Positions 26,880-35,341 of a stretch of DNA of 64,000 bases are shown in pieces. Under the pieces are notes generated by a model that made no database searches, was not told the DNA's origin, and saw only the letters and a list, made by a program, of their open reading frames with translations. Made by a program: the position numbers and the translations under genes. The stretch spans positions 330,233-394,232 of the forward strand of contig MKVM01000001.1 of assembly GCA_001898835.1 (NCBI GenBank), given 5' to 3'. Numbering within the stretch: position 1 is the stretch's first letter; every line of letters starts with the position of its first letter. The stretch is from Micrococcales bacterium 72-143 (GTDB taxonomy: Bacteria > Actinomycetota > Actinomycetes > Actinomycetales > Microbacteriaceae).

Positions 26880-28952
26880 CTACACGTCGACGCGCGAGCG
26901 GTCGAGTCCCTGGCCCGCGATGATGAAGTCCTTGCGGGGGGCCACGTCGTTGCCCATGAGCAGCTCGAACACGCGGTTCGCCGCATCCGCGTCCTCGACG
27001 CGCACGCGGCGGAGCGTGCGATGCGCGCGGCTCATCGTCGTCTCGGCGAGCTGGTCGGCGTCCATCTCGCCGAGGCCCTTGTACCGCTGGATCGGGTCCT
27101 GGTAGCGCCGGCCCTGCTTCTTGAGGGTCGCGAGCACGCTCTGCAGCTCCTGCTCCGAGTAGGTGTAGATGATGTCGTTGGGCTTCGACCCGGGGTTGAT
27201 CGCGACGACGCGGTGCAGCGGCGGAACCGCCGCGAACACCCGGCCGTCTTCGATCATCGGCCGCATGTACCGGAAGAACAACGTGAGCAGCAGGGTGCGG
27301 ATGTGCGCCCCGTCGACATCCGCGTCGCTCATGATGATGACCTTGCCGTAGCGCGCCGCATCGAGGTCGAAGCTGCGGCCCGACCCGGCGCCGACCACCT
27401 GGATGATCGACGCGCACTCGGCGTTGCCGAGCATGTCCGCCACGGATGCCTTCTGGACGTTGAGGATCTTGCCCCGGATGGGCAGGAGCGCCTGGTGCTC
27501 CGAGTCTCGCGCGAGCTTCGCGGTTCCGAGAGCGGAGTCGCCCTCCACGATGAAGAGCTCGGTGTCGGCGACGTCGTTCGAGCGGCAGTCGACGAGCTTC
27601 GCCGGAAGCGACGAGCTCTCGAGGGCGTTCTTGCGGCGCTGCGTCTCCTTGTGGGCGCGCGCCGAGATGCGCGACTTCATCTCGGCGACGATCTTGTCGA
27701 GCACGAGCGCCGACTGCGCCTTGTCGTCGCGCTTCGTGCTCGCGTAACGCGCCTGCAGGCCCTTCACGACCGCGTTCGACACGATCGCGCGCACGGCGGG
27801 GGTGCCGAGCACCTCCTTGGTCTGCCCCTCGAACTGCGGCTCGGGGAGGCGCACCGTGAGCACCGCGGTGAGGCCCGCGAGCACGTCGTCCTTCTCGAGC
27901 TTGTCGCTGCCCGCCTTGAGCCGCCGGGCATTCTTCTCGACCTCCGCGCGGAGGAACTTGAGCAGGCCCTGCTCGAAGCCGGCCAGATGGGTGCCGCCCT
28001 TGGGCGTCGCGATGATGTTCACGAAGCTTCTCACGACCGTGTCGTAGCCGGTGCCCCAGCGCAGCGCGACGTCGACCTCGCACTCCCGCTGCAGTTCGGT
28101 GGGCACCATGTGCCCGTTCTCCTGCAGCACGGGCACCGTCTCGGCGTAGCCGCCGACCCCCTGGATGCGCCAGACGTCGGTGACCGCCGCATCCGGTGCG
28201 AGGTGCTCGACGAACTCGCTGATGCCCCCGTCGAAGCGGAAGCTCTCGATGCTCGGCTGCTCGCCGCGGTCGTCGCGGATCTCGATGCCGAGCCCCGGCA
28301 CGAGGAACGCGGTCTGACGGGCGCGCCCGAAGAGCTCCTCGGTCTGGAAGCCGGCGCCCTTGGTGAAGATCTGACGGTCGGCCCAGTACCGGATGCGGGT
28401 GCCGGTGACACCCTTCGCGACCTTGCCGATGACCCGCAGCTCGCTGCCGGACACGAACGGGGTGAACGACGCGTCGGGGGTCGGCTCGCCGGCATCCGCG
28501 AAGGTCCCGGGCTCGCCGCGGTGGAACGACATCGCCCAGGTCTTGCCGTCGCGGTCGACCTCGACGTCGAGGCGCTCCGAGAGGGCGTTGACGACGGAGG
28601 CGCCGACGCCGTGGAGACCGCCGGACGCCGCATAGGAGCCGCTGCCGAACTTGCCGCCCGCGTGCAGCTTCGTGAAGACGACCTCGACGCCCGTGAGCCC
28701 TGTCTTCGGCTCGATGTCGACCGGGATGCCGCGGGCGTGGTCGCGCACCTCGACGGACTCGTCGGCGTGCAGGATGACCTCGATCTGCGAGCCATGGCCG
28801 GCGAGCGCCTCGTCGACGGAGTTGTCGATGATCTCCCACAGGCAGTGCATGAGGCCGCGCGAGTCGGTCGAGCCGATGTACATGCCGGGGCGCTTGCGCA
28901 CCGCCTCCAGACCCTCGAGGACGGAGAGATGGCGGGCGGAGTAGTCGGTCAC
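26880..28952 (-). CDS. parE: DNA topoisomerase IV subunit B
   Basis: A 690-residue ATPase/Toprim subunit. The N-terminal GHKL region shows LEAVRKRPGMYIGSTD, EIIDNSVDEALAG and GGLHGVGASVVNALS; the Toprim domain has VEGDSALG, PIRGKILN and DADVDGAHIRTLLL. Length fits ParE rather than long GyrB forms. The start is GTG 28952, with TAGGCT 6 nt upstream. It works with ParC, encoded convergently next door. Confidence 0.92.
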   Translation of the reverse strand: MTDYSARHLSVLEGLEAVRKRPGMYIGSTDSRGLMHCLWEIIDNSVDEALAGHGSQIEVILHADESVEVRDHARGIPVDIEPKTGLTGVEVVFTKLHAGGKFGSGSYAASGGLHGVGASVVNALSERLDVEVDRDGKTWAMSFHRGEPGTFADAGEPTPDASFTPFVSGSELRVIGKVAKGVTGTRIRYWADRQIFTKGAGFQTEELFGRARQTAFLVPGLGIEIRDDRGEQPSIESFRFDGGISEFVEHLAPDAAVTDVWRIQGVGGYAETVPVLQENGHMVPTELQRECEVDVALRWGTGYDTVVRSFVNIIATPKGGTHLAGFEQGLLKFLRAEVEKNARRLKAGSDKLEKDDVLAGLTAVLTVRLPEPQFEGQTKEVLGTPAVRAIVSNAVVKGLQARYASTKRDDKAQSALVLDKIVAEMKSRISARAHKETQRRKNALESSSLPAKLVDCRSNDVADTELFIVEGDSALGTAKLARDSEHQALLPIRGKILNVQKASVADMLGNAECASIIQVVGAGSGRSFDLDAARYGKVIIMSDADVDGAHIRTLLLTLFFRYMRPMIEDGRVFAAVPPLHRVVAINPGSKPNDIIYTYSEQELQSVLATLKKQGRRYQDPIQRYKGLGEMDADQLAETTMSRAHRTLRRVRVEDADAANRVFELLMGNDVAPRKDFIIAGQGLDRSRVDV

Positions 28953-29005: not shown

Positions 29006-30298
29006 TCAGCCCCCGAACTGCTGAACCCAGTACACGCGGCCCGTGCTCGAGGTCGAGGAGCAGGCGCCCATCATCGTGAACGCGCCGTTCAGGATGTTGG
29101 CGCGGTGCCCGGACGAGTTCATCCAGCCGGCGACGACCGCCGAGGCGCTTCCGTACCCGTACGCTACGTTCTCGCCCCAGGTGGAGAACCCGCCGCCGAA
29201 GCTGCTGTGGTACAGGTCGCCGTTGCGCGAGGCGAGCTCGGCCGCGAACGAGCAGGACCGGGACGCCAGGGTGCCGTTCCAGGAGAGGCCGCCCAGCCCG
29301 TTGGCCGAGCGGTTGGCGTTCGTCTCGCTCAGCACGCCGCGCTGCTCGCTCGCGCCCGTGACGCTGCCACCGCCCCCGCCGGTGCTGCCACCTCCGCCGC
29401 GCGAGCCACCGCGCGCCCGCCTGGCCGCCTCGGCCGCCGCAGCCTGCTCGGCGGCGACACGTGCCGCCTCGGCGTCGTGCGCGGCGATCACGGCGGATGC
29501 CGAGCTCGCGTAGGCCGCGAGGAGTCCGGGAAGCTCGGCGGCATCCGCACCGTCGAGGGCCGCCACGGCGGTCGCGGCCGCGGCACGCGTCTCCTCGGAG
29601 GCGAGCGCGTGGCTCGCGAGCAGCGCCTCGTGCACCGCGGCGATGGACGCCGCGGTCTCGCCGAGCCGCGCGTCGAGCGCGGCCGACGCGGTGTCGACCC
29701 GCGCCGCGCGCGCCAGGAGCTCGACGCGGGACGCCTCTGCGGCATCCGCATCCTCGCCCAGGGCGAGGGCGAGCGCGCGCAAGAGCTCTGTCTCGGCCGT
29801 GGGGTCGACCGCGTCGGGCAACTCCATCGGGACCGCATCGGGAACGACGGAGCCGGAGCCGGGCTCGTCGACGCCGACGACGTCGGCGAGCACCGACCCC
29901 AACTCGGCGTGCGCCGCGGTGAGCGACGCGAGCGCTTCGGCACCGCCCAGGAGGTCCTGGTGTGCGAGCACCTGGCTCGCGACCGCGTCCCGCGCGGCGA
30001 TGCCATCGGTAACGGAGCTCGCGAGCGTCGCGACCGCCCCCTGCTGCGCGCGCACCGCATCCACGGTCACCAGCCGAGCGGCCCGAGCCTCGGCGACCGC
30101 CTCGTCGTGAGCGACCTTGTTCGCCCACGCGACCCCGCCGGTCACGCCGCCGCCGATCACGAGGGCGCCGATCGCCGCGATCGCGACCCAGGCGCGACGC
30201 GGGATGCGGCGCCGCGCGACGCCCTCGTCACCCGCGGGCTCGGGCACGACCTCGTGCTCCGCCGCGACGTCGAGCACCTCCGTCGACTCATCCCCCAT
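29006..30298 (-). CDS. Membrane-anchored CAP/SCP-domain protein
   Basis: A 430-residue protein. A charged cytoplasmic N-terminus (1-35) is followed by one membrane helix (about 36-59), a 250-residue Ala/Glu/Leu-rich helical stalk, a Gly-rich hinge (SRGGGGSTGGGGG), and a C-terminal CAP domain of about 110 residues. CAP features are LSETNANRSANGLGGLSWN, His in LYHSS, WGENVAYG and the GWMNSSGHRANIL signature. CAP proteins are extracytoplasmic and of diverse function. TAGGGT lies 6 nt before ATG 30298. The N-terminal architecture is mirrored by the protein at 46304-47266. Confidence 0.85.
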   Translation of the reverse strand: MGDESTEVLDVAAEHEVVPEPAGDEGVARRRIPRRAWVAIAAIGALVIGGGVTGGVAWANKVAHDEAVAEARAARLVTVDAVRAQQGAVATLASSVTDGIAARDAVASQVLAHQDLLGGAEALASLTAAHAELGSVLADVVGVDEPGSGSVVPDAVPMELPDAVDPTAETELLRALALALGEDADAAEASRVELLARAARVDTASAALDARLGETAASIAAVHEALLASHALASEETRAAAATAVAALDGADAAELPGLLAAYASSASAVIAAHDAEAARVAAEQAAAAEAARRARGGSRGGGGSTGGGGGSVTGASEQRGVLSETNANRSANGLGGLSWNGTLASRSCSFAAELASRNGDLYHSSFGGGFSTWGENVAYGYGSASAVVAGWMNSSGHRANILNGAFTMMGACSSTSSTGRVYWVQQFGG

Positions 30299-30692: not shown

Positions 30693-31715
30693 GTGGCTGA
30701 AGCCCCCGGCGGTCTCGGCCGCCGATTGCGGTACCTCGCGGGCCGCGCCGCCCGCCTCAACCCGGCGAACGTCTGGCGTATCGCGGGCGCGGCACGTCCC
30801 CTGACGAAGAAGCCGCGGCTCCTCATCGTGGCCGACATGCTCTGGTGCTCGGTGCGCTACGAGTTCGGCTTCCAGGACTACCTCGACTGGGACGTCGTCA
30901 TGCTCACGGGCGCCGAACGCCGCACGTACATCACGCATCCGAAGTCCAACCACCTGGCGATGACGCTCAACGACCCCGAGCTGCGCCGCGTGTTCGCCGA
31001 CAAGCTGCGCTTCAACGCCCGGTTCGGCGAGTTCATCGGCCGCGACTGGCTCGACCTGCGCGAGGCCGACGCCTCCGCGGTGCGGGCCTTCCTCGACTCG
31101 CACGGCCGCGCCATGCTCAAGGTGCCCGACAGCCTCTCCGGGTACGGCATCGAGAAGGTCGAGGCGGATGCGGTGGCCGATGCGGAGGCGTTCCGTCAGG
31201 CCGCGATCGAGCGGCGGCAGTTCCTGCTGGAGGGCTACATCGTCCAGCACCCCGATATGGCGGCGCTGTGCCCGACGAGCGTCAACTCGCTGCGCGTCAT
31301 CACCTACTTCGACGGCACCGCCCTGCACGTGCTCGCGAGCGTTCTCAAGATCGGCAACGGCGGCGACATCGACAACTTCTCGAACGGCGGCATGTACACG
31401 ATGCTCGACGAGACGGGCACCGCCCGGTTCGCCGCCTTCGACGAGAGCGGCACGAGCTACGCCGTGCACCCGCTCACCGGCACCTCGATCGTGGGCTTCC
31501 CGGTTCCCCTGTACGAGCAGGTCGTCCCGATGCTCGACCGTGCCGCGCGTGTCATCCCCGAGGTGCCCTACGTCGGGTGGGATGTCGCGATCACGCCCGA
31601 CGGGCCCGTGATCATCGAGGGCAACCCCAACTCGGGTGTGTATCAGTCGAAGCCCTCCGTGTCGGGCATCCGGGAGGGGCTCCTCCCCCGCTACCGCGCC
31701 GCGATCGGCTTCTGA
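30693..31715 (+). CDS. ATP-grasp protein (sugar-transfer-associated ATP-grasp family)
   Basis: A 340-residue protein. Residues from about 130 form an ATP-grasp fold: AMLKVPDSLSGYGIEKV (Lys and glycine loop over ATP), LLEGYIVQHPDMAAL (hinge), NSLRVITYFDG, and IIEGNPNSGVYQ carrying the metal-binding Glu/Asn. It resembles the family annotated as sugar-transfer-associated ATP-grasp; such enzymes ligate a carboxylate to an amine or thiol with ATP. The substrate is unknown. It starts at GTG directly after the previous stop and overlaps the convergent gatD by 25 bp, beside murT, so a cell-envelope role is possible. Confidence 0.78.
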   Translation: MAEAPGGLGRRLRYLAGRAARLNPANVWRIAGAARPLTKKPRLLIVADMLWCSVRYEFGFQDYLDWDVVMLTGAERRTYITHPKSNHLAMTLNDPELRRVFADKLRFNARFGEFIGRDWLDLREADASAVRAFLDSHGRAMLKVPDSLSGYGIEKVEADAVADAEAFRQAAIERRQFLLEGYIVQHPDMAALCPTSVNSLRVITYFDGTALHVLASVLKIGNGGDIDNFSNGGMYTMLDETGTARFAAFDESGTSYAVHPLTGTSIVGFPVPLYEQVVPMLDRAARVIPEVPYVGWDVAITPDGPVIIEGNPNSGVYQSKPSVSGIREGLLPRYRAAIGF

Positions 31716-32461
31716 AGCCGCTCGCCGGGATGCCAGCGCCGCTCGTCGCGGAACTCGGCGAGTCGCGCGTCGTAGGCCGCGATCGCATACTCCTCGTGGG
31801 CCAGCGCCGGTTCCGTATCGGGGTCGAGGCGCGCCAGGAGCGACCGTGTGAAGTGCGGGTTGGTGACGAGCAGCGGGCCGATGAGCGAGGTGCCGATGAG
31901 GCTGCCGACGCGCACTCCCTCGACGGGGGTCGTCGTGTTCCGTCCGATACCGCGCTCCGCCGTGAGGAACCCCGCCAGGCCGGGCGCCGCATCCACCATC
32001 GAGAACTGCGACTTGTAGCCGACGATCGGGTGCTCCGGCCCGAGCTCGGGCACGGGGCCCATGACCTTGCCGCTGTATCGCCCCATCATCGCGAGCGTCG
32101 CCTCGAGCTCGAGGATGCCGAGACCGGCCGCGTCGTAGCCCATGTCGTCGTTGCGGATGCGGGCGCCGAGCACCTCGAGGGCGTTGTGGGTGAAGAGGGT
32201 GACCGCGTCGGACGCGATCCGCGCCTCGAGCGCCGCGCGGTGCGGGCTCAGCCGGTCGATCGCCTTGAGCTGGGCGCGCTCGGTGAGCGGGCCCAGGTAG
32301 AGCAGGTCGACGTGCTCGTCGAGGAACGCGGGGCGCTCGTTGAGACCCGTGCGGATGACGCGCGCGTCCGGACGGCACTGCGCGAGGTAGGTGATGTTGG
32401 CGTTGTCGCCGTGGAGGTTCGCGACCTCCGGGAAGAGCATCTCGATCGTCAGGGTGCTCAC
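31691..32461 (-). CDS. gatD: GatD-like protein with a degenerate glutaminase site
   Basis: A 256-residue homologue of GatD, the glutamine amidotransferase partner of MurT. Recognisable blocks are STLTIEMLFPEVANLHGDNA, AGLGILELEATL, EHPIVGY and GTSLIGPLLVTNPHFTRSLL. In Staphylococcus aureus GatD the nucleophile Cys94 lies in TICGGYQFLG and His189 in GTYLHGPILPKN. The equivalent segments here read LFTHNALEVLG (Cys to His92) and GTSLIGPLL (His to Ile194). The glycine-rich oxyanion loop and the NHGGR glutamine-binding segment are also gone (LGPLTERAQ, YKSQFSMV). The protein is full length, in frame and coupled to murT by GTGA. It probably cannot hydrolyse glutamine. Family call high, function open. 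Confidence 0.82.
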   Translation of the reverse strand: MSTLTIEMLFPEVANLHGDNANITYLAQCRPDARVIRTGLNERPAFLDEHVDLLYLGPLTERAQLKAIDRLSPHRAALEARIASDAVTLFTHNALEVLGARIRNDDMGYDAAGLGILELEATLAMMGRYSGKVMGPVPELGPEHPIVGYKSQFSMVDAAPGLAGFLTAERGIGRNTTTPVEGVRVGSLIGTSLIGPLLVTNPHFTRSLLARLDPDTEPALAHEEYAIAAYDARLAEFRDERRWHPGERLQKPIAAR

Positions 32462-33837
32462 GCGTCCGCCTCCGCCCGTCGGGCGAGCCGCGCGCGCAGG
32501 CGCGCCTGCGTCGCATTGCCTGTCGTGAGCGCGTTGTGCACGCTGTGCAGGTTGAATACGGCGTCGGCGTGCGCCACGTCGACGAGCTCGGCGGGCTCCG
32601 TCTCGGAGGCGGCGGTGCGGATGCGGTCGGGGTCGACCCCCGCGATCGCGAGCCGCAGCGCCTGGTCGTAGCGACGGTTGCCTCCGACGACGAGCTGCTC
32701 GACGGTTTCGTCCGCGAGGTACTCGTAGTCGGCGTCGTAGATCCAGGCCGTGTTCTCGACCTCGTTCTCGCGCTCGCTCCACTCGTCGATCGTGAGAACG
32801 ACCGACTTGCGCCCCGGGAAGGAGCGGAGGTACTCGAAGGCGCGCGAGCACGCGACGCCCACGAGCCCCTTGGTGAGCAGCCGCACGAGCAGCACCTCGC
32901 CGATCCGCTCGGAGGCGAAGCGCGTCGTCGGGGGGACGAGCGTGTCGAACGCGCTCACGATGCGATCCCGCGCGACCCCGAGCACGTCGAGCGCCGCGGC
33001 GACCGCGACCTCGTTGTAGACATTGACGATGTTGTCGTTGACGAGGCGGGCCTCGCGCGCATCCCCGTCGAGGCCGAGCACCAGGCGCGACGCAGCCGCG
33101 TCGATGTCCCGCGCGCGGTACGCCGCATCTGGTGAGCGGAAGCCGCACGCGGGGCAGTGCGCCCGCCCGATGTGGTTGAAGCGCCAGTAGTCCCAGGCGA
33201 GCAGCTGATCGCAGACCGGGCAGGTCATCGCGTCGAGCGCGGCGCCGGTCGGCGTCTCCGTGTCGCCGGGCAGGCGTTCGACCGCGAAGTGCACGCGCGG
33301 ATTCGACTCGCCGCCGAGCGAGGAGGCGATCAGGTCGTCGGCGTTGAGCACGAGCATCGTGTCGGCGGCGAGCTCGGAGCTGAGGATCCAGGCGATGTAC
33401 TCCGGATGCGCGTTGCGCTTGATGGAGTCGCGCGTCAGGTTCGTGCACACCAGCACGTCGGGGTGCAGCCCGGGCAGCACGAGCCGCCCGGAACGCTCGT
33501 CGAGTTCGAGGACGCCGACGTCCGCACGGGGCCGCCCGCGCCAGTCGACGGCGGCGATGAGCGCCCACGCGATGCCCGCGGCGAGGTTCGACCCGCTGCG
33601 GTTGCTCGCGACGCGCATGCCCTCACCGAGGAGCGCCTCGGCGAGCAGGTTCGACACCGTCGTCTTGCCGTTCGTGCCGGTCACCGCGACGACGCGCGCC
33701 GGATGCCGCACCGCGCCGATGATGCCCGGGTGGATGCGGCGCGCGACGATGCCCGGCACGTGCGTGCCCTGCCGCCCGAGCACACGCAGCAGGGCCGCCG
33801 TGAGCTTGGCCGCCCAGACGGCCAGCAGCACGCGCAT
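32458..33837 (-). CDS. murT: MurT-type Mur ligase (lipid II D-Glu alpha-carboxyl ligase)
   Basis: A 459-residue Mur-ligase-family protein. The P-loop is GTNGKTT (54-60). The MurT-specific Cys4 zinc ribbon sits in the middle domain (Cys206, Cys209, Cys228, Cys231). The C-terminal DUF1727 domain has NTAWIYDADYEYL, retaining the Asp (368) that corresponds to the key Asp of S. aureus MurT. MurT activates the alpha-carboxyl of D-Glu in lipid II, and GatD supplies ammonia. Here the ligase looks intact while GatD does not. It starts 13 bp after the sigA stop and overlaps gatD by 4 nt. Confidence 0.92.
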   Translation of the reverse strand: MRVLLAVWAAKLTAALLRVLGRQGTHVPGIVARRIHPGIIGAVRHPARVVAVTGTNGKTTVSNLLAEALLGEGMRVASNRSGSNLAAGIAWALIAAVDWRGRPRADVGVLELDERSGRLVLPGLHPDVLVCTNLTRDSIKRNAHPEYIAWILSSELAADTMLVLNADDLIASSLGGESNPRVHFAVERLPGDTETPTGAALDAMTCPVCDQLLAWDYWRFNHIGRAHCPACGFRSPDAAYRARDIDAAASRLVLGLDGDAREARLVNDNIVNVYNEVAVAAALDVLGVARDRIVSAFDTLVPPTTRFASERIGEVLLVRLLTKGLVGVACSRAFEYLRSFPGRKSVVLTIDEWSERENEVENTAWIYDADYEYLADETVEQLVVGGNRRYDQALRLAIAGVDPDRIRTAASETEPAELVDVAHADAVFNLHSVHNALTTGNATQARLRARLARRAEADA

Positions 33838-33850
33838 CCGATCGGCCGGC

Positions 33851-35341
33851 TTACTCGAGGTAGTCCCGCAGCGACTGCGAGCGGCTCGGGTGGCGCAGCT
33901 TCGCCATCGTCTTCGACTCGATCTGGCGGATGCGCTCGCGCGTCACGCCGAAGGTGTCGCCGATCTGGTCGAGCGTCTTCGGCATCCCGTCGCCGAGCCC
34001 GAAGCGCATGCGGATCACGCCCGCCTCGCGCTCGGAGAGCGAGTCGAGCAGCGACTCGAGCTGCTTCTGCAGCATCGTGAAGCCCACCGCGTCCGCCGGC
34101 ACGACCGCCTCGGTGTCCTCGATGAGGTCGCCGAACTCGCTGTCGCCGTCCTCGCCGAGCGGCGTGTGCAGCGAGATCGGCTCGCGGCCGTACTTCTGCA
34201 CCTCGATGACCTTCTCGGGGGTCATGTCGAGCTCGCGGCTCAGCTCCTCCGGGGTGGGCTCTCGGCCCAGGTCCTGAAGCATCTGCCGCTGCACGCGGGC
34301 GAGCTTGTTGATGACCTCGACCATGTGCACGGGGATGCGGATGGTGCGCGCCTGGTCGGCCATCGCGCGCGTGATCGCCTGGCGGATCCACCACGTCGCG
34401 TAGGTCGAGAACTTGAAGCCCTTGGTGTAGTCGAACTTCTCGACGGCGCGGATGAGGCCGAGGTTGCCCTCCTGGATGAGGTCGAGGAACTGCATGCCGC
34501 GACCCGTGTAGCGCTTCGCGAGGGAGACCACGAGACGCAGGTTGGCACCCAGCAGGTGGTTCTTCGCGCGCTGCCCGTCGCGGGCGACCCAGGACAGCTC
34601 GCGGCCGAGCTGGCTGCGCTTCTCCTGGTCGGTCATCTGGGAGAGCTTCTCCTCGGCGAAGAGGCCCGCCTCGATGCGCATCGCGAGCTCGACCTCCTGC
34701 TCGGCGTTGAGGAGGGCGACCTTTCCGATCTGCTTGAGGTAGTCCTTGACCGGGTCGGCGGTGGCGCCCGTGATCGCGGCCGAGTAGACCGGCACCTCGT
34801 CGTCGTCGTCCGTCATGGACAGGCGCAGCGCGCCGGTCGGCAGCGGCTCGTCGCTGCCCGTCGACTCCTCGTCCTCGGTTTCCTCCGAGTCCTCCTCGCC
34901 GGCGTCCTCCTTGGCCTCGGGCGTCTCGGCGTCCTCGCCGTCGGCGGAGTCCTCGGATGCCGCCTCGCCGTCGGTCTCCTCCTCGATCTCTCCGTCGATC
35001 TCGATCTCGGCGTCCTCGTCGAGCTCGTCGTCGCCGTCGAGCCCCGCGTCCTTCGCCTTCGCGGGCGAGGCCTTGCCGCCGGTGGTCTTGGCGGGCGCCT
35101 TGGCCGCCGGCTTCGGGGCAGCCTTCGCCGCGGCCTTCACGGGCGCCTTGGCGGCGGCTCCGGTGGCGGCCTTCGCCGTCTTGGCAGCGGGCTTCGCTGC
35201 GGGAGCGGTCGCCTTGGCGGCCGGCTTGCTCGCGGCCGGCTTGCTCGCGGTCTTCGCGGCAGCGGTCTTCGTCGCCGTCTTCTCGGACGTGCGGTCGTCT
35301 TTGACCGTGTCCTTCGTCGACGTGGAGCGGGGGGTGGCCAT
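33851..35341 (-). CDS. sigA: RNA polymerase primary sigma factor SigA
   Basis: A 496-residue sigma-70 group 1 factor. Residues 1-100 are Lys/Ala/Pro-rich and 100-165 strongly acidic, as in actinobacterial HrdB/SigA. Region 1.2 is [21 protein letters not shown]; regions 2.1-2.4 run through [32 protein letters not shown] and [10 protein letters not shown]; region 3 has [14 protein letters not shown]; region 4.2 is [20 protein letters not shown]. It starts at ATG 35341 behind GAAAGGGG. murT-gatD follow 13 bp downstream. It recognises the main promoters of the cell. Confidence 0.96.

Follow-up and report, generated by a model that had tools for sequence, protein, structure and literature searches.

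A MurT/GatD pair lacking the glutaminase cysteine in Microbacteriaceae, a candidate ligase for the peptidoglycan cross-bridge

Results

The MurT/GatD pair in the window

A 64,000-nucleotide stretch of DNA from Micrococcales bacterium 72-143 (Microbacteriaceae; assembly GCA_001898835.1, contig MKVM01000001.1, positions 330,233 to 394,232), hereafter the window, carries on its minus strand a murT-gatD gene pair of a form that we refer to as the star type. The murT gene (32458..33837) encodes a Mur-ligase subunit of 459 aa, and its 3' end is overlapped by 4 nt by gatD (31691..32461), an open frame of 256 codons with a GTG start at 32461 and a stop at 31691. These coordinates agree with a first-pass annotation of the sequence, which had described a full-length, in-frame GatD coupled to murT.

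The best solved relative of this GatD was the Staphylococcus aureus protein (E 3.6e-9), to which residues 4-211 aligned. Cys94 of S. aureus GatD falls on His92 (codon 32186-32188) and His189 on Ile194 (codon 31880-31882), the same two replacements that the first pass had read, and the oxyanion and glutamine-binding segment, also described there as changed, is Pro58/Thr60. The tyrosine gating the ammonia channel is replaced by His17 (codon 32411-32413). In Streptococcus pneumoniae GatD, Tyr30 plugs the ammonia channel (PMC6085368). A single-sequence structure prediction of the window GatD reached a mean predicted local distance difference test score of only 33.6, too low to be of use.

The window MurT keeps the P-loop Lys58 (GTNGKT) and the four zinc-ribbon cysteines (Cys206, 209, 228 and 231), as first annotated. 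The catalytic aspartate, reported in the same annotation as retained, is not: Asn362 (32752-32754, within 'VENTAW') corresponds to D349 of S. aureus MurT (within 'GRDTSW'), the aspartate of the putative catalytic triad, and a D349N substitution in S. aureus MurT abolished the reaction in vitro (PMC6113224). Asp368 of 'WIYD' is kept. The start of the DNAAD motif, Asn341-Asp342 in S. aureus MurT, reads Asp351-Glu352 in the window (32782-32787); this region is described as lying between triad and ATP site, and is brought up alongside the amino-acid pocket of MurE (PMC6113224).

MurT scored above the Pfam cut-offs for PF08353 (64.2, cut-off 25) and PF08245 (31.9, cut-off 24) and below those of the NCBIfam equivalog models NF045635 (137, cut-off 800) and NF052464 (174.6, cut-off 800). 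GatD scored below the cut-off for Pfam GATase_3 (PF07685; 18.2, cut-off 27) and for the equivalogs NF045636 (19.3, cut-off 400) and NF052463 (31.2, cut-off 450). The window MurT thus belongs to the MurT Pfam family, and the curated models place neither protein among the isoglutaminyl synthases. Only one GatD was seen in the genome among the matches listed for the window GatD query, together with one MurT, and four other GATase_3 matches were read by eye as PdxT-, PurQ-, HisH- and PuuD-like, in line with the expectation that no second, intact GatD would be present. No CofE-like gene was detected in this genome. A 16S rRNA gene was also not found in the assembly.

Distribution of Cys-less pairs

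A search with the window GatD gave matches in 186 of 299 Microbacteriaceae genomes. Seventeen of these (the window's own genome included) were at least 56% identical, and the others among the matches listed were 24-36% identical. We then read the MurT-linked GatD from 92 loci of the family and, elsewhere in the order, from 38 loci outside it (two of these loci, L022 and L057, are the same gene). All 38 proteins from outside the family keep both Cys and His, while the 92 family loci comprised 18 with Cys, 57 without it (type b and odd) and 17 of the star type. Among the MurT-linked GatD read from the order, loss of the cysteine is therefore restricted to Microbacteriaceae (0/38 outside).

After the addition of named genomes and the removal of 11 duplicates or fragments (L057, L331, L332, L341, L349, L352, L366, L369, L373, L374, L375), the final set held 64 canonical, 83 type b, 18 star and 3 odd pairs, with further duplicates between genome sets possibly remaining. 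The canonical and b labels were assigned by the Cys column, so that the other residue columns are independent, and the odd class holds three outlying Cys-less pairs (G005, G053, G123) that were kept separate. The 17 star loci besides the window are alike in their losses, with His (16) or Gln (1) in place of Cys and Ile or Leu in place of His, and murT and gatD are adjacent in 18 of 18 star loci. A sequencing fault as the source of the loss is ruled out by the 18 star and 83 b loci that lack the cysteine.

Correlated residue changes, constraint and phylogeny

Five further GatD positions were invariant in all 64 canonical proteins, namely the His, the gate Tyr, two oxyanion-loop Gly and the Tyr before LHG, and all of these are changed in star GatD. 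Type b GatD has lost the gate Tyr, one oxyanion Gly and the Tyr before LHG, and keeps the His in 46 of 83 proteins. The gate Tyr was present in 64/64 canonical, 0/18 star and 0/83 b proteins. No replacement cysteine is conserved in type b GatD; a cysteine (C29) found in 16 of 18 star proteins lies away from the nucleophile position.

At the position of MurT D349 the canonical and b proteins have Asp throughout (64/64 and 83/83), and the star proteins have Asn (17/18) or Met (1/18). Both Cys-less types are changed in the DNAAD region: Asn341 is replaced by Asp in 18/18 star proteins and by Asp (54) or Gly (29) in the 83 b proteins, and Asp342 by Glu in 18/18 star and 42/83 b proteins. The P-loop and other Mur-ligase residues are invariant columns in both star and b MurT.

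Star GatD was 55-75% identical to the window copy across the 13 relatives aligned. The median ratio of GatD to MurT distance was 0.98 in the star type (146 pairs), compared with 1.04 in canonical pairs (186) and 1.36 in type b. Star GatD is therefore as constrained as its MurT and is not decaying.

In the MurT tree the star proteins formed one clade of 17, not joined to a clade of 53 rows that took in every b row, the three odd proteins falling outside it, and the GatD cysteine was absent from the rows of both clades (0/17 and 0/53). A more careful tree of 47 rows kept star and b separate in the best tree and in 200 of 200 bootstraps, and independent loss of the cysteine in the two types is likely on this evidence. 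A Cys4 zinc ribbon is found in star MurT, is absent from b and is incomplete in most canonical MurT of the order, a pattern that would fit a separate source for star MurT. Ribbon loss was rejected as a mark of type b, as 60 of 64 canonical MurT are also gapped at the first Cys pair and 12-13 have the second.

The sigA-parE slot and its neighbours

The window pair lies behind sigA (33851..35341, minus strand), a primary sigma factor gene identified by eye with its start set at MATPRST, which forms the upstream border of the proposed island. The C-terminal 300 aa of this sigma factor are 100% identical to those of Homoserinibacter gongjuensis, and the window probably comes from a Homoserinibacter-type member of the family. 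The downstream border is a parE/gyrB-type topoisomerase subunit gene (26880..28952, minus strand), identified by eye. Regions of 14 kb around star and b pairs share the gene order PAC2-like, transporter, sigA, murT, gatD and parE (names by eye). The C-terminus of sigA was found upstream of MurT in 81 of 83 b loci (median gap 11 bp), in 14 of 18 star loci, where flanks are short, and in none of the 64 canonical loci, 61 of which have at least 300 bp upstream.

On the plus strand, a gene for an ATPgrasp_ST protein (PF14397, 146 bits, cut-off 31.4; 30693..31715) converges with gatD, the 3' ends overlapping by 25 bp. Such a gene adjoins 9 of 18 star pairs and 1 of 83 b pairs. Racemase-like genes adjoin 22 of 83 b pairs, 1 of 3 odd pairs, and none of the 18 star or 64 canonical pairs. 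Both sets of counts are lower bounds, most loci extending only 1-2 kb beyond the pair. In Microbacterium RU33B, ectB (diaminobutyrate transaminase; 594.8 bits, cut-off 552.2), murT-b, gatD-b and a racemase-like gene follow one another, with ectB directly before murT-b.

Exchange with a CofE-like ligase

In a set of 150 genomes of the family, type b was counted by subtraction from the A1 matches, by score, with only part of those GatD read, and 'no MurT' means none at E 1e-3 for PF08353, E 1e-30 for A1 (1e-20 in named genomes) and E 1e-20 for A2. The star type was present in 10 genomes and type b in 93, and no genome had both (p 3.7e-5, shared ancestry ignored). A strong match to a CofE-like protein (at least 366 bits) was found in 21 genomes and any MurT in 120, again with no overlap (p 6e-19, shared ancestry ignored). 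MurT and the CofE-like gene alternate within seven genera, the window's own included (g1, g7, g9, g13, g58, g76, g84), and star and b alternate within four (g38, g43, g49, g67). Weak CofE-like matches (128-153 bits), which were not counted, occurred in G053 and G123, beside odd MurT, and in the type b genome G147; no other genome among the 150 has both a MurT and a CofE-like match. In G053 and G123 the loci (L055, L056) hold a third, very divergent kind of Cys-less MurT/GatD, with the weak CofE-like match (about 153 bits) beside it.

The stretch from sigA onwards was read in 20 named genomes, 13 without MurT, 2 of type b and 5 canonical. A CofE-like protein occupies the sigA slot in 11 of the 13 genomes without MurT, the exceptions being Klugiella and an Agrococcus sp., and is absent from this slot in both type b and all five canonical genomes read. 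The two CofE-like proteins checked against Pfam both matched PF01996 (47 and 28.9 bits, cut-off 25), and the CofE-like proteins scored far under the NCBIfam CofE equivalog cut-offs. An ATPgrasp_ST gene of the window type stands beside 9 of the 11 CofE-like genes, and racemase-like genes occur at 6 of the 11. Some of the latter are paired (L396:1859-3551, L401:2805-4546), one gene encoding mainly the N-terminal barrel and the other mainly the C-terminal domain, and perhaps represent a split heterodimeric racemase for a diamino acid.

Named genomes and wall types

Among 98 named genomes (from 100 of 118 named loci), 36 carried type b, and all 36 GatD were read and lack the cysteine. These were Clavibacter (both named genomes searched), Leifsonia, Herbiconiux, Labedella, Curtobacterium, Frigoribacterium, Cryobacterium, Agromyces, Rathayibacter, Mycetocola, Naasia, Glaciibacter, 2 of 41 Microbacterium and four less clearly named genomes. 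A canonical pair is also present in two type b Leifsonia genomes, those of Leifsonia aquatica and Leifsonia sp. TF02-11 (L372, L373 with L353, L351). Eight genomes had the canonical pair only (five Leucobacter, Amnibacterium, Agrococcus jejuensis and Aurantimicrobium), and one, Schumannella soli, had the star type. MurT was undetected in the remaining 53, of which 39 were Microbacterium; the others were two Homoserinibacter, Microcella, two Salinibacterium, Klugiella, Gulosibacter, an Agrococcus sp., Frigoribacterium CG_9.8, a Homoserinimonas metagenome-assembled genome and four genomes of other families. The figure for Microbacterium contrasts with the statement that murT-gatD is universally present in Actinobacteria (PMC6085368).

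Microbacterium has B-type walls with Gly first on D-Glu, and outside Actinomycetota B-type walls occur in Acetobacterium, Eubacterium limosum and Erysipelotrichaceae. B-type peptidoglycan as a class reportedly traces to Schleifer and Kandler (1972, as cited in PMC4156110). Recorded wall types include B2-beta with diaminobutyrate for Rhodoluna (PMC4156110); B2-beta with D-Lys for Frigoribacterium, B2-gamma with diaminobutyrate for Cryobacterium, B2-beta with D-Orn for Homoserinimonas and B with Lys and Orn for Salinibacterium (all PMC7033078); and B-type for Leucobacter chironomi (PMC4511665). The wall types of Clavibacter, Rhodoluna, Frigoribacterium and Cryobacterium fit a D-diamino acid for type b.

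The first-pass annotation had suggested that this complex could be the missing B-type bridge ligase, and had proposed that GatD Cys/His loss be mapped against peptidoglycan type. The only pair detected in the B-type L. chironomi (L347) has a GatD with Cys and His, 39 of 41 Microbacterium genomes have no detected MurT, and 9 of the 150 family genomes have neither a MurT nor a CofE-like gene. Because of these cases, Cys loss is seen to track the family and the sigA locus and not B-type as such, an outcome that the first pass had itself named as refuting its proposal and that is seen in part. The idea that B-type itself decides the loss is contradicted by L. chironomi and Microbacterium, and the Cys-less pair is not a universal B-type ligase.

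Discussion

From the residue losses, their conservation, the locus, the mutual exclusion and the neighbouring genes we infer, as the reading that we favour by a modest degree, that the window carries a Cys-less ligase coupling D-Glu with a free amine, the probable candidate being the first amino acid of the bridge; GatD would act as a scaffold, and the region between sigA and parE would be a B-type cross-bridge island. MurT retains what it needs for ATP-dependent activation of a carboxyl, which homology would make the alpha-carboxyl of D-Glu on a peptidoglycan precursor, and the activated carboxyl would then be joined to a free amine and not to ammonia derived from glutamine. With the Cys, the His, the Asp of MurT and the Tyr of the channel gate gone, GatD would yield no ammonia and would remain as a conserved structural subunit. 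With an engineered Cys-to-Gly GatD (C94G), S. aureus MurT can still use ammonia to amidate lipid II at pH 8.5, though not at pH 7.5, and GatD is required (PMC3266927), so a Cys-less GatD can scaffold the use of a free amine. The amine would most likely be the first residue of the B-type cross-bridge. The repurposing towards amino-acid ligation proposed in the first pass gains from the family-restricted loss, the fixed locus, the racemase and ectB neighbours, the replacement ligase and the S. aureus mutant, while the chemistry itself is read from sequence.

For type b, racemase genes at the locus and, in one genome, a diaminobutyrate transaminase suggest that a D-diamino acid is attached straight to D-Glu, as in Clavibacter. 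In the star type, the ATP-grasp neighbour common to CofE-like loci suggests a two-residue bridge, with the ATPgrasp_ST protein as candidate ligase for the second residue. Three ligase modules would be interchangeable at one chromosomal position, flanked by sigA and parE, the window having one of them. A fuller version, which we offer tentatively and hold to be somewhat less probable than not, is that MurT-b/GatD-b, star MurT/GatD and the CofE-like protein are alternative first-residue ligases acting on the alpha-carboxyl of D-Glu, that the convergent ATP-grasp protein adds the second residue where the bridge has two, that racemases and the transaminase supply the D-diamino acid, and that GatD was turned, probably twice, into an amine-binding scaffold; the module would then allow the peptidoglycan subtype to be predicted from sequence.

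The strongest competing explanation, though an unlikely one, is that the complex still amidates D-Glu with free cytoplasmic ammonia. Carbamoyl phosphate synthetase I is an amidotransferase that works in this way with a dead glutaminase site, and the invariant P-loop and other Mur-ligase residues of star and b MurT are consistent with continued amidation, as is the ammonia-dependent activity of the GatD-requiring C94G complex at pH 8.5; that activity is absent at pH 7.5 (PMC3266927). Amidation would also block the carboxyl used for cross-linking in B-type walls, and it leaves unexplained the exchange with an F420-ligase-like protein, the racemase and ectB neighbours and the DNAAD change in both clades. 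We regard an amino acid as the likelier amine, as the channel gate is lost and the pocket region is changed in both clades.

Less likely again is ligation of an amine to a carboxyl outside bridge formation, on another cell-wall component or a soluble substrate. The proposed substrate of the complex is assigned by homology, and we know of no peptidoglycan role for F420_ligase-like or ATPgrasp_ST proteins; set against this are the PF08353 and PF08245 scores, the racemase and ectB neighbours, which suit cell-wall D-diamino acids, and the action of canonical MurT on the D-Glu of lipid II (PMC6085368). That GatD, and perhaps MurT, of the star type are relics on the way out without a specific activity is very improbable: many canonical catalytic residues are lost and type b GatD evolves faster than its MurT, but star GatD is conserved and as constrained as its partner, the genes stay side by side at every star locus, and exclusive exchange with another ligase argues for function.

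Several observations weigh against a bridge ligase in the window and its island. The ectB gene was seen in one genome, racemases stand at 22 of 83 b pairs and at no star pair, and no ATPgrasp_ST gene adjoins the other 9 of 18 star pairs or either Homoserinibacter CofE-like gene. Conservation of D349 in all b MurT is unexplained by this model, and the approximately unbiased test stops short of formally rejecting one shared origin for the Cys loss (p-AU 0.083). Nine of 150 genomes have neither module, and the weak CofE-like match of the type b genome G147 lies elsewhere in the genome. The recorded peptidoglycan types also sort uncleanly: the Homoserinimonas genome has a CofE-like gene and no detected MurT despite its B2-beta D-Orn record, L. 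chironomi is B-type with a canonical GatD, and nearly all named Microbacterium genomes have no detected MurT.

The window pair resembles the lipid II isoglutaminyl synthase MurT/GatD of S. aureus and S. pneumoniae in its gene pairing, P-loop, Mur ligase middle and MurT_C domains, zinc ribbon (star) and GatD similarity over most of the length. It differs in having a triad of His/Ile/Asn for Cys/His/Asp, in the lost gate Tyr and altered DNAAD region, in scores far under the equivalog cut-offs and in its locus behind sigA. The C94G complex is alike in that a Cys-less GatD still supports MurT with ammonia at pH 8.5 (PMC3266927), but it is a laboratory mutant, whereas the Cys-less state is natural in two conserved Microbacteriaceae clades. 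MurT lacks the UDP-binding N-terminal domain that MurE and MurF have (PMC6113224). The slot protein of other Microbacteriaceae is over the Pfam cut-off for CofE, the F420-0:gamma-glutamyl ligase (PF01996), and unlike CofE it lies far under the equivalog cut-offs and in a fixed position behind sigA. MurC to MurF join free amino acids to a peptidoglycan carboxyl with ATP, which is the activity proposed for the Cys-less complex, and do so without a GatD partner. In the parts of the open-access literature covered, most subscription journals lying outside that scope, we found no enzyme that attaches the bridge residue to D-Glu, nor any GatD without the cysteine.

Microbacteriaceae are soil and water bacteria with unusual walls. 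If the bridge-ligase reading is right, a single locus would yield candidate genes for the different parts of the bridge and would present a natural experiment in enzyme replacement, including a glutaminase that has lost catalysis while staying in its complex. Genes annotated as GatD or F420 ligase in the family would then often carry the wrong name.

Additional observations

A weaker second GatD match was observed in the star genome G032. A record titled Planococcus sp. APC 4015 (L304, L359) has a Microbacteriaceae 16S pattern together with a type b MurT and is probably mislabelled. Between parE and the ATP-grasp gene the window also encodes a predicted secreted protein (29006-30298, minus strand), CAP/SCP-like by eye only, which is shared with just 1 of 10 other star regions.

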